Source of the DNA: Pseudomonas putida W15Oct28
GTDB lineage: Bacteria > Pseudomonadota > Gammaproteobacteria > Pseudomonadales > Pseudomonadaceae
Reading direction: 5' to 3'
NCBI RefSeq assembly: GCF_000708715.2
Contig: NZ_JENB01000030.1
Coordinates: 1 to 64,000 of the forward strand
Length of the DNA: 64,000 nt
Numbering within the stretch: position 1 is the first letter of the stretch; every line of letters begins with the position of its first letter. The notes beneath the pieces were generated by a model. It was given only the letters and a program-made list of their open reading frames with translations, had not been told where the DNA came from and searched no databases. Of the stretch, positions 350-41,922 are shown in pieces. A program made the position numbers and the translations under genes.

Positions 350-1417
350 TCAGCCACGCGGCTTGCCGCGACCACGGCCTGCCGGCTTGTCACCCTCAGG
401 CTTGCCCGTGCGCTTGCGCATGTCGCTTGGGCGCTCGGCCACCGTGCTGCCACGGTTAGGTTTACGCGGAGCCTCTTCACGCGGCTGACGCGCCGGGCGC
501 TCACCAGTGGCGGCACCTTCCTGAGCCGGGCGCAGGTTGCGCACGCGCTCGCCACGGCCCAGCGGGCGGGTCGACTTGCGCTGCAGGCGCTCCATCTTGT
601 CCTTGGCCTTGAGCTTCATGGCAGGCAGCGCTACTGGCTGCAGGCCCACTTCGGCGGCCAGGATGTCGATTTCGCCCTGGGTCATTTCACGCCAGCGGCC
701 CATCGGCAGGTCGGAGTTGAGGAACACCGGGCCGAAACGCACGCGCTTCAGGCGGCTGACCACCATGCCCTGGGATTCCCACAGGCGACGCACTTCACGG
801 TTACGGCCTTCCATCACCACGCAGTGGTACCAGTGGTTGAAGCCTTCGCCACCCGGTGCCTTCTGGATATCGGTGAACTTCGCCGGGCCGTCTTCCAGCA
901 TCACGCCAGCTTTCAGGCGCTCGATCATCTCGTCGTCGACTTCACCACGCACACGTACCGCGTACTCACGGTCCATCTCGTAGGACGGGTGCATCAGGCG
1001 GTTGGCCAGTTCACCGTCGGTGGTGAACAGCAGCAGGCCGGTGGTGTTGATGTCGAGGCGGCCGATGTTGATCCAGCGGCCTTCTTTTGGCCGTGGCAGG
1101 CGGTCGAACACGGTCGGACGGCCTTCAGGGTCGTCACGGGTGCAGATTTCGCCATCGGGCTTGTTGTACATGATCACCCGGCGGGTGGCCTCGGCGGCCT
1201 CTTCGCGCTTGATCAGCTTGCCGTCTACGGCAATGGCGTCGTGCAGGTCGACACGCTGGCCAAGGGTGGCAGCAACGCCATTGACCTTGATGCGGCCCTG
1301 GCTGATCCAGGCCTCGACGTCACGGCGCGAACCCACGCCAATGCGCGCCAGCACTTTCTGCAGCTTTTCGCCAGCGGGTGGGGTGATCTCGGTATCTTGC
1401 AGGTCTTGCTCACTCAT
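350..1417 (-). CDS. rluB: 23S rRNA pseudouridine(2605) synthase RluB
   Basis: A 355-residue pseudouridine synthase of the RsuA/RluB family that isomerises a uridine in helix 93 of 23S rRNA. An S4 RNA-binding domain lies at about residues 18-65 (EKLQKVLARIGVGSRR). The catalytic motif GRLDINTTGLLLFT carries the presumed nucleophile Asp122. From about residue 255 there is a low-complexity Arg/Lys/Pro-rich tail ending in PAGRGRGKPRG. Basic tails are common in pseudomonad RluB and probably contact RNA. ATG start with GGGAGGTGCCC just upstream. The gene lies downstream of scpB on the same strand but is separated from it by a REP pair. Confidence 0.93.
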   Translation of the reverse strand: MSEQDLQDTEITPPAGEKLQKVLARIGVGSRRDVEAWISQGRIKVNGVAATLGQRVDLHDAIAVDGKLIKREEAAEATRRVIMYNKPDGEICTRDDPEGRPTVFDRLPRPKEGRWINIGRLDINTTGLLLFTTDGELANRLMHPSYEMDREYAVRVRGEVDDEMIERLKAGVMLEDGPAKFTDIQKAPGGEGFNHWYHCVVMEGRNREVRRLWESQGMVVSRLKRVRFGPVFLNSDLPMGRWREMTQGEIDILAAEVGLQPVALPAMKLKAKDKMERLQRKSTRPLGRGERVRNLRPAQEGAATGERPARQPREEAPRKPNRGSTVAERPSDMRKRTGKPEGDKPAGRGRGKPRG

Positions 1418-39642: not shown

Positions 39643-39722
39643 GGTTGCCTCTCATGAATCAAGGCCGCGACCTTAGCGGGTTGCGGTAAATGAGTTCAAC
39701 CATGAGGAATGTAGGGGCTGTG

Positions 39723-39819
39723 CCGGCCTCTTCGCGGGTGAACCCGCTCCCACAGGGATATCAGAGCACCTGAGACCTGTGATTTACCTGTGGGAGCGGG
39801 TTTACCCGCGAAGAGGCCC
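39723..39819. repeat. REP inverted pair, GGGTGAACCC subtype
   Basis: CCTCTTCGCGGGTGAACCCG and CGGGTTTACCCGCGAAGAGG, differing at one place (tgaa/ttta arms). Located upstream of the EamA gene and downstream of the azoR terminator. Confidence 0.85.
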
Positions 39820-39845
39820 GCACAGGCAACCAGCAAATTCGAGGC

Positions 39846-39872
39846 AAAAAAAGCCCGGCGCTGATGGCCGGG
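39846..39872 (-). terminator. azoR intrinsic terminator
   Basis: Minus-strand stem GCCCGGC/GCCGGGC with a seven-base loop, then seven T. It lies about 55 bases after the azoR stop. Confidence 0.85.
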
Positions 39873-39926
39873 CAGGTACACCCAAAGGAGCAAAAACAGG
39901 TGTCAGGGTTGGGAATTCAGTAAACC

Positions 39927-40526
39927 TCAGGCCACCGCCGCCAGTTTGGCCTTGGCCTGGTTGACGCCTTTCTCGTGGAACTCGCCGCTCATGTTCAGGC
40001 CTTCGGCATGGATGAAGTACACGTCATGAATGCCGATGAAAGCCATCACCTGGCGCAGGTACGGTTCCTGATGGTCGCTGGTGGCGCCGGCATGGATACC
40101 GCCGCGAGCAGTCAGCACGACAGCGCGCTTGCCGGTCAGCAGGCCCTGCGGGCCAGTGGGGGTGTACTTGAAGGTGATGCCGGCACGCAGCACGTGGTCC
40201 AGCCAGGCCTTGAGGGTGCTGGGGATGGTGAAGTTGTACATCGGCGCAGCCATCACCAGCACGTCGGCAGCCAGCAATTCATCAGTTAATTCGTTGGAAC
40301 GGGCCAGGGCATCCAGTTCCGCTGCGCTGCGCTGTTCTTCGGGCTTCATCCAGCCACCCAGCAGGTTGGCGTCCAGGTGCGGTACCGGGTTCACGGCCAG
40401 GTCGCGCACAGTAATCTGATCGGCCGGGTGAGCGGCCTGCCATTGCTGGATGAAATCACGGGTCAGCTGACGGGAAACGGAATCCTGCTGGCGGGCGCTG
40501 CTTTCGATGATCAGTACGCGGGACAT
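39927..40526 (-). CDS. azoR: FMN-dependent NADH-azoreductase
   Basis: A 199-residue flavodoxin-fold quinone/azo reductase. FMN-binding motifs are SSARQQDSVSRQL (phosphate loop) and PMYNFTIPSTLKAWLDHVLRAGITFKYT. NADH-dependent two-electron reduction of quinones and azo dyes protects against thiol-reactive quinone stress. The ATG is preceded by GGAGG six bases away, but that SD sits in a perfect nine-base hairpin (see 40533-40567), so expression may be gated in the leader. Confidence 0.92.
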   Translation of the reverse strand: MSRVLIIESSARQQDSVSRQLTRDFIQQWQAAHPADQITVRDLAVNPVPHLDANLLGGWMKPEEQRSAAELDALARSNELTDELLAADVLVMAAPMYNFTIPSTLKAWLDHVLRAGITFKYTPTGPQGLLTGKRAVVLTARGGIHAGATSDHQEPYLRQVMAFIGIHDVYFIHAEGLNMSGEFHEKGVNQAKAKLAAVA

Positions 40527-40532
40527 GGGGTG

Positions 40533-40567
40533 CCTCCATCGGCAAAAAGGGTGCGATTCGATGGAGG
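40533..40567 (-). promoter_or_regulatory. SD-sequestering hairpin of azoR
   Basis: In the mRNA CCTCCATCG, 17 bases, CGATGGAGG, six bases, ATG. All nine pairs are perfect and the second arm contains the whole GGAGG. Candidate translational switch. A promoter TTGAAC (40617-40612) 18 bases from TATCGA (40593-40588) would start the mRNA before both arms. Confidence 0.62.
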
Positions 40568-40635
40568 TGAGATTAAGGCTTGACCTATCGATAAAAAAGC
40601 GTAAAAAGTGGGTTCAATCAATCGATTAATCAGTT

Positions 40636-40950
40636 TTATTCCGCACTGCAGTTCAAGGCGATCCGCAATTTGATGATCTGCCGATTGAATTTGGCAGTGA
40701 CATCGACGCTTTTACCGGCCGGAACGTTCACCCGGCGTACCCGCGGTGCTTCCGGGCCGTTGCGGAAGGTTACCTTGCACGCCGCCGGTACTTGCCCATA
40801 GTTGTTGAGGGTAATGGCGCCAATGTCGTAGGCCGTGTCATAGGCGGTGTAGTCGAGCTTGACCCCGGTCAGCTCCTTCTCCACATCGATGGGATAAGCC
40901 ATGGCCCCGAGGGGCAGGCACATCAGTATTGCCGCACAACATTTCTTCAT
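40636..40950 (-). CDS. Small exported protein of unknown function
   Basis: A 104-residue protein with a signal peptide (CAAILMCLPLGAMA, about 1-18). The mature part is a predicted beta-sandwich-like segment: YDTAYDIGAITLNNYGQVPAACKVTFRNGPEAPRVRRVNVPAGKSVDV. Two cysteines in the mature part could pair. It is divergent from a LysR gene. I do not recognise it beyond a Pseudomonas-type conserved hypothetical. Confidence 0.7.
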   Translation of the reverse strand: MKKCCAAILMCLPLGAMAYPIDVEKELTGVKLDYTAYDTAYDIGAITLNNYGQVPAACKVTFRNGPEAPRVRRVNVPAGKSVDVTAKFNRQIIKLRIALNCSAE

Positions 40951-40998
40951 GGGCCGCTCTCCTTGAAAGAGCGCAGCTTAGGACAACAGGAGCGAAAG

Positions 40999-41922
40999 AT
41001 GAAAGCGCCGCGCGTAACCCTTGACCAGTGGCGAACCCTGCAAGCAGTGGTCGATCACGGCGGGTTTGCCCAGGCCGCCGAGGCACTGCACCGGTCGCAG
41101 TCCTCGGTCAGCTACACCGTGGCCCGCATGCAGGAACAACTGGGCGTGCCACTGCTGCGCATCGACGGCCGCAAGGCGGTGCTCACCGAGGCCGGCAACG
41201 TGCTGCTGCGCCGCTCGCGCCACCTGGTCAAGCAGGCCAGCCAGCTCGAAGACCTTGCCCACCACATGGAGCAAGGCTGGGAGGCCGAGGTGCGCCTGGT
41301 GGTCGATGCCGCCTACCCCAGTGCCCGCCTGGTACGTGCCCTGGCCGCGTTCATGCCGCAAAGCCGCGGCTGCCGGGTGCGCCTGCGTGAAGAAGTGCTG
41401 TCTGGCGTAGAAGAAGTGATGCACGAAGGCATCGCCGACCTGGCCATCAGCAGCTACAGCATTGGCGGCTACCTGGGCGCCGAACTGAGCGCGGTGGAGT
41501 TCGTCGCCGTCGCCCACCCTGAACACAGCCTGCACCGCCTGGGCCGGGAACTCACCTTCCAGGACCTGGAAAGCCAGTTGCAGGTGGTCATCCGCGACTC
41601 CGGCCGCGCGCAGCCACGCGACGTCGGCTGGCTGGGCGCCGAACAGCGCTGGACCGTCGGCAGCCTGGGCACCGCCGCCACCTTTGTCAGCAGTGGCCTG
41701 GGCTTTGCCTGGCTGCCCCGGCACATGATCGAGCGCGAGCTGACTGAGGGCGTACTCAAACCGCTGCTGCTGGATCAGGGTGGCAGCCGCCACCCACTGT
41801 TCTACCTTTATTCGAGCAAAGAGAAGACCCTGGGCCCGGCCACGCAGATTCTCATCGACCTGCTGCGCAACTTCGACACCGCGCCACTGGACGTGCCCTT
41901 CGCAGCCCCCCCGCAAGCCTGA
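40999..41922 (+). CDS. LysR-family regulator
   Basis: A 307-residue LysR regulator. HTH: LDQWRTLQAVVDHGGFAQAAEALHRSQSSVSYTVARMQEQLGVPLL. The effector domain includes VGSLGTAATFVSSGLGFAWLPRHMI. ATG 40999 follows ACAGGAGCGAAAG. The alpha/beta hydrolase begins 13 bases after the stop on the same strand, so the two may be one transcript. The target is unknown. Confidence 0.87.
   Translation: MKAPRVTLDQWRTLQAVVDHGGFAQAAEALHRSQSSVSYTVARMQEQLGVPLLRIDGRKAVLTEAGNVLLRRSRHLVKQASQLEDLAHHMEQGWEAEVRLVVDAAYPSARLVRALAAFMPQSRGCRVRLREEVLSGVEEVMHEGIADLAISSYSIGGYLGAELSAVEFVAVAHPEHSLHRLGRELTFQDLESQLQVVIRDSGRAQPRDVGWLGAEQRWTVGSLGTAATFVSSGLGFAWLPRHMIERELTEGVLKPLLLDQGGSRHPLFYLYSSKEKTLGPATQILIDLLRNFDTAPLDVPFAAPPQA

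Follow-up and report, generated by a model that had tools for sequence, protein, structure and literature searches.

Gene Neighborhood of azoR

We analyzed a 64,000-nt stretch of Pseudomonas putida W15Oct28 DNA (contig NZ_JENB01000030.1; hereafter the window), in which azoR, a quinone/azo-dye reductase gene of the azoreductase family, is found next to a small ORF and a LysR-type regulator gene (table 1). The nearest solved relatives of AzoR are azoreductases, and the protein scores below the curated cut-offs of NCBI models. Beyond LysR, genes for an alpha/beta hydrolase, a peptidyl-prolyl isomerase, and an ABC transporter follow in that order. By position, azoR and the small ORF presumably correspond to PA3223 and PA3224. 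The gene order from LysR to the ABC transporter is that of the PA3225-PA3228 operon of P. aeruginosa, as far as the main text of a LysR-deletion study describes it (PMC5527654). Autorepression by LysR is described there, and PA3223 and PA3224 appear neither in its main text nor in its nine-gene Table 3 (PMC5527654).

Table 1. Features of the azoR region (coordinates are positions in the window)
Feature	Coordinates	Strand	Basis
azoR, FMN-dependent NADH-azoreductase family, 199 aa	39927..40526	-	PF02525, E 3.5e-55
Arm 2, CGATGGAGG, with SD GGAGG (40537..40533)	40533..40541	-	Sequence and tree changes
Loop, 17 nt in the window	40542..40558	-	Length within the 8-bp stem ranges from 10 to 20 nt across loci
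Arm 1, CCTCCATCG, discriminator and predicted transcription-start region	40559..40567	-	Tree changes per site
Predicted transcription start, A of CCATCG	40562..40562	-	7 nt past TANNNT; usual start-site rule
-10-like element, TAATCT	40570..40575	-	TANNNT in 218/218 loci
Conserved block TTTTTACGCTTTTTTATCGAT, -45..-25 region	40587..40607	-	-35..-32 invariant in 218 loci
LysR-box-like TTAATCGATTGATTGAA, candidate regulator site, center near -59 from predicted start	40613..40629	-	Sequence
Small ORF, 104 aa, co-directional upstream, proposed read-through source	40636..40950	-	No family match
LysR-type regulator, divergent	40999..41922	+	PF03466/PF00126 (scanned from 40987)

The small ORF separates LysR from azoR in 128 of the 130 loci of the genus and is missing in two (L047 and L055). 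Outside the family, LysR is divergent and at most 250 nt from azoR in 66 of 83 loci and farther away in 5, with no LysR match in 12. This divergent placement and the conserved block at -45..-25 are among the features expected of a LysR-controlled promoter, and azoR may be controlled by LysR. The same order of LysR, small ORF, and azoR was also observed in two loci titled Pantoea (L163 and L184), which possibly represent mislabelled Pseudomonas, their azoR genes being 96% and 92% identical to that of the window.

Downstream of azoR, a terminator-like hairpin with a T run is located at 39853..39873 (minus strand), and an inverted repeat of the GTGGGAGCGGGTT type at 39708..39837 has a sub-threshold Rfam match. 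Weak Rfam matches at 39708..39914 were discounted, as they lie downstream of azoR and fall below gathering scores.

A Hairpin over the azoR Ribosome-Binding Site

The leader of azoR, which is encoded on the minus strand, has the sequence TAATCT-CA-CCTCCATCG-N17-CGATGGAGG-CACCCC-ATG. An earlier note on this DNA had described a perfect 9-bp hairpin with a 17-base loop, whose second arm contains the complete Shine-Dalgarno (SD) sequence, and had called for a folding calculation. All of this was borne out: the two arms are fully complementary (40567..40533), the GGAGG in the second arm ends six bases 5' of the azoR ATG at 40526, and the RNA from 40590 to 40524 folds strongly (-19.4 kcal/mol, z -3.21; 1 of 200 shuffles was equally good).

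As such, perfect inverted repeats of 9 bp (loops of 3-20) are not unusual in the window: 16 were counted, and 20 dinucleotide shuffles averaged 8.2. One that covers an SD is rare. Of the 56 genes called, 36 whose start has an SD of four or more bases were tested for SD-covering stems; azoR ranked first (score 24, runner-up 18) and was the sole start with p <= 0.01 (0 of 200 shuffles as high). The pattern CTCCATCG-N8..24-CGATGGAG, which represents the 8-bp stem used in the comparative analyses, occurs once in the 6.3-Mb genome. An RsmA/CsrA site (A-N-GGA in the stem) was dropped from the candidates because such sites require their GGA in a loop.

-10-Like Element and Predicted Transcription Start

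Among 149 genomes of the genus, 146 gave a match, and 131 of these matches reach at least 74% identity; omitting one at a contig edge left 130 leaders. With 80 named loci and 25 further relatives, 235 were obtained, from which 17 repeats were removed to give 218 distinct Pseudomonadaceae loci. A divergent relative (L265, 66% identity) is outside this set, and by eye its leader would make nine pairs, two of them G-U. As a neutral yardstick, 46 fourfold degenerate sites showed a median of 36 changes on the azoR tree.

A TANNNT hexamer is present upstream of CCATCG in all 218 loci, a count to which the anchoring of the alignment contributed by rewarding TA at this -10-like position, although chance would supply TANNNT in only a small share of loci. 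The A of CCATCG follows 7 nt on in 203 loci and 6 nt on in 15. This spacing changed 7 times on the azoR tree, compared with 44 times for the length of the loop (range 10-20 nt). In the alignment, arm 1 keeps a rigid distance to the promoter, and its distance to arm 2 is loose.

Transcription start sites usually lie 7-8 nt past the -10 element, on a purine following a pyrimidine. With the conserved TANNNT as the -10, the A of CCATCG fits this rule and is therefore the predicted start of azoR; the gene's own transcripts probably start inside arm 1. No consensus -35 matched to TAATCT is present, as would be expected if the azoR promoter needs an activator. Upstream of the -10-like element, a conserved block is located (table 1), and CGCTTTTTNATCGAT has one exact match in the genome, at azoR, plus two more with one mismatch. 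A LysR box common to both arms was also considered and dropped, since, by eye, some clades have an altered ATCGAT box at -30 but unaltered arms.

The pattern nnnAAT-N5-C-AT, whose letters were required in the selection, fits 47 of the 83 leaders from outside the family; some of these have a plain AAGGAG and lack arm 2. By eye, ten loci of another family (L306, L310-L312, L316-L319, L322, and L326) have a small TGGC/GCCA hairpin just past the predicted start, which is not over the SD.

The earlier note had assigned the azoR promoter to TTGAAC/TATCGA. Both hexamers are present (40617..40612 and 40593..40588, separated by an 18-base spacer), but their promoter role found no support: the first T of TATCGA, the proposed -10, changes 31 times on the azoR tree against the fourfold-site median of 36, and this near-neutral rate led us to reject the pair. 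A consensus promoter scan listed neither TTGAAC/TATCGA nor the TAATCT element.

On that promoter assignment, the main azoR mRNA would start upstream and carry both arms, and opening of the hairpin by a ligand, temperature, a protein, or coupled transcription would switch translation. Such a switch would agree with the strong fold that buries the SD and with the retention of the stem across the family. The near-neutral first T of TATCGA speaks against it, as does the conserved TANNNT, which sets the start within arm 1 and so out of step with a normal message containing both arms. A start inside the first arm had been named beforehand as refuting the switch, and this is where the predicted start falls. 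Moreover, the loop varies in both length and sequence, and an Rfam search over 40533..40617 (E up to 5) returned no family match on the hairpin; a ligand switch is unsupported for these two reasons. A riboswitch or RNA thermometer was rejected on the same Rfam result and a loop of 10-20 nt. We consider translational switching of an upstream-started message rather unlikely.

Conservation and Pairing of the Stem

All eight pairs of the CTCCATCG/CGATGGAG stem are formed in 135 of the 218 loci, seven in 76, and six in 7. Numbered from the predicted start, the sites of CTCCATCG (-4..+4) changed 8, 12, 4, 0, 0, 1, 5, and 3 times on the tree. Those of CGATGGAG (CGAT, then GGAG) changed 15, 2, 4, 0, 0, 0, 0, and 1 times, where TGGA, present in every one of the 235 loci, is invariant by construction as the anchor of the alignment. 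Change is much more frequent at -7..-5, 5' of arm 1 (27, 44, and 33, the last at the base immediately outside the stem), at the base immediately outside arm 2 (25), and at the base immediately inside arm 1 (+5, 23 changes); the base immediately inside arm 2 changed only 11 times. As far as these counts go, the slow-evolving stretches stop at the stem ends on three of four sides, and the border inside arm 2 is blurred.

The initiator accounts for part of arm 1 and the SD for part of arm 2, and in these alignments neither accounts for the CTC at -4..-2 or for the GAT ahead of GGAG. The CTC carries 1.57, 1.35, and 1.87 bits in 112 Pseudomonas leaders, compared with 0.09, 0.32, and 0.47 bits in the 47 outgroup leaders, and being near random in the latter it is apparently not needed for the promoter. 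CTC is the complement of the SD's GAG, and GAT is the complement of the initiator ATC. Each of the two segments is complementary to just that stretch of the opposite arm whose fixation has a separate cause, and the pairing itself looks to be under selection.

If instead arm 1 were simply promoter and arm 2 simply SD, their complementarity would be a historical chance kept by descent. Such an absence of function would fit the independently constrained part in each arm and the near absence of compensatory change in the stem, but it leaves the conservation of CTC and GAT without an independent reason, and we regard it as highly improbable.

The earlier note had also looked to covariation of the arms in an alignment of azoR leaders. 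The alignment went the other way, with one arm changing without the other and without compensation, an outcome that the note had named as refuting: arm 1 alone changed at -3 and -4, and arm 2 alone at its C. Two-sided changes in the 8-bp stem numbered none in seven pairs and one in 76 rows at the innermost pair. When four flanking pairs were added, 40 two-sided cells were counted, more than in any of 500 shuffles (mean 26.9); yet slid controls reached 40, 35, and 32, so these changes prove nothing. The excess of G-U over A-C that a sense-RNA helix would predict is absent from the azoR stem as judged by cells (10 vs. 11 in 76 rows) and events (12 vs. 7). Because the SD fixes one side, the covariation and G-U tests are low in power.

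These results bear on the possibility that the dyad CTCCATCG...CGATGGAG is a DNA element, bound by a protein over the start, with the RNA hairpin as a by-product. Both arms are conserved as sequence, G-U is no more frequent than A-C in the stem, and a location over the start would suit a repressor; in addition, the C-A-T(CGA) start region recurs in outgroup leaders without arm 2. On the other hand, the spacing of the arms varies by 10 bp over the 218 loci (44 changes), which is hard to reconcile with a rigid dimer, and where a segment of one arm has no other explanation, it matches a fixed part of the opposite arm. We regard a DNA element as unlikely.

SD Accessibility and Proposed Insulation

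The accessibility of the SD was calculated for RNAs with different 5' ends in 106 distinct leaders. The mean probability that GGAG is unpaired was 0.04 for RNA starting at -60 and 0.05 at -4, where the CTCC is kept, compared with 0.33 at -2, 0.35 at -1, and 0.32 at +1. By folding only, the long upstream RNA leaves GGAG unpaired with a probability below 0.3 in 105 of 106 leaders. RNA from the gene's own promoter is thus predicted to lose much, though not all, of the SD mask, with an access from +1 of only 0.32.

An arrangement consistent with these values is a hairpin that can cover the ribosome-binding site (RBS) and has the azoR promoter within its 5' arm. Own-promoter RNA, beginning at the A of CCATCG, would have a leader of about 36 nt without the CTCC that pairs with GGAG and would be translated. 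RNA entering from upstream, chiefly by read-through from the small ORF, would contain both arms and fold, and its SD would be hidden. Because the stretch from the small ORF to the azoR promoter block has no terminator-like site in 126 of 128 loci (one was found in the other 2), such read-through is possible. The start site, the read-through RNA, and the translational effect are what we infer here. The hairpin more likely silences stray read-through RNA than switches the normal message, and insulation of azoR from leaky upstream transcription by a promoter within the stem is the best-supported explanation, although we advance it tentatively and somewhat short of calling it probable. Counting against insulation, the two Pseudomonas loci without the small ORF (L047 and L055) still keep seven of eight stem pairs, and three outgroup loci with a directly divergent LysR (L234, L287, and L291) have a similar 8-bp stem. 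The one-sided changes in the azoR stem, the missing G-U excess, the blurred border inside arm 2, the modest SD access from +1, and outgroup stems that do not exceed swapped controls overall also weigh against it.

In a related reading, transcription begins on either of the two C's that precede the A, such that a 5'-terminal CCAUCG/CGAUGG stem protects the RNA end or tunes translation and covers only the GG of the SD. CCATC/GATGG are indeed the most invariant pairs of the stem, and in the window species an RNA that begins at -2 and comprises the leader and 33 nt of azoR forms the CCAUCG/CGAUGG stem (-13.5 kcal/mol). However, the conserved CT at -4 and -3 would be left unexplained and purine starts are usual in bacteria, and we find a start at a C quite improbable.

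Other SD-Covering Stems

The leader of the small ORF (40955..40980, minus strand) reads TAAGCT-G-CGCTCT-TTCAAGG-AGAGCG, in which an SD-covering stem directly follows a -10-like TAAGCT. Rows for its analysis were chosen by a required -10 pattern, 8 of 237 being dropped. In 88 representative leaders, 62 two-sided cells were found, compared with 26.6 in shuffles (none of 500 reached 62); slid controls gave no more than 13, and compensatory change in this stem is strong. Its mean score over 127 distinct leaders was higher than in all 500 species swaps. However, A-C mismatches outnumbered G-U pairs in the 88 leaders (35 against 25). The gene upstream of the small ORF is divergent, so it may be that this stem serves no RNA at all; it could also be part of the leader of LysR, read from the opposite strand. 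We doubt, the more so in view of the A-C excess, that Pseudomonas chromosomes regularly use promoter-in-stem insulation, with two examples in a row here (azoR and the small ORF).

For outgroup stems, 47 of 83 leaders with the required motif were used, 36 being dropped and at least one (L304) being anchored at a wrong site. Their SD-covering stems had a mean score of 10.63, compared with 10.33 after exchange of arms among species; 18% of swaps scored as high, so the difference is not significant. The 17 leaders of one genus (g94) scored 13.47 against 12.30, a weak signal with 4% of swaps as high.

In one locus of another family (L283), a co-directional gene of 256 aa (617..1387, plus strand) is located between LysR and azoR, and the gap is similar in a second locus (L282). 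In these two loci, the predicted start and the RBS are covered by an 8-bp stem of another sequence, RCCCCAAC/GTTGGGGT. Because partial stems are also present in relatives that lack such a gene, the parallel to insulation is suggestive only.

Relation to Known Systems and Significance

The closest known system, by analogy, is gene e of phage T4, in which longer early transcripts hide the RBS in an RNA helix and late promoters within the 5' strand give short, well-translated transcripts lacking that strand; soc, 49, and I-TevI are grouped with gene e as leaders with a buried RBS (PMC3014915). As in gene e, the azoR RBS is predicted to be buried in RNA started upstream, and the proximal promoter predicted for azoR would likewise lie in the 5' strand. 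Gene e differs in its phage early/late timing, mapped 5' ends, and reported 100-fold effect (PMC3014915), whereas azoR is a chromosomal reductase gene beside a LysR regulator, with a host-type -10 and a predicted 5' end. A search by title and abstract opening, under names other than PA3223, found no paper on the azoR start site or leader hairpin.

Hairpins also guard the transposase genes of IS10 and IS50 against outside transcription: read-through RNA masks the ribosome site, and proper transcripts begin inside the repeat. Those hairpins are the ends of mobile elements, whereas the azoR hairpin is at a vertically kept chromosomal locus.

By analogy with T4, the azoR hairpin might well add a host-gene case to the known RBS hairpins with a promoter in the stem, a prospect that we put slightly below probable. 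If so, it would be a caution against taking every SD hairpin as a riboswitch, and its signature, a -10 followed by an SD-complementary arm, would be searchable in any genome. Host genes would then have a means of separating their own RNA from stray RNA, with a ribosome site that is readable only in RNA begun at the proper promoter, and this would help explain how tightly packed genes are controlled independently without terminators.
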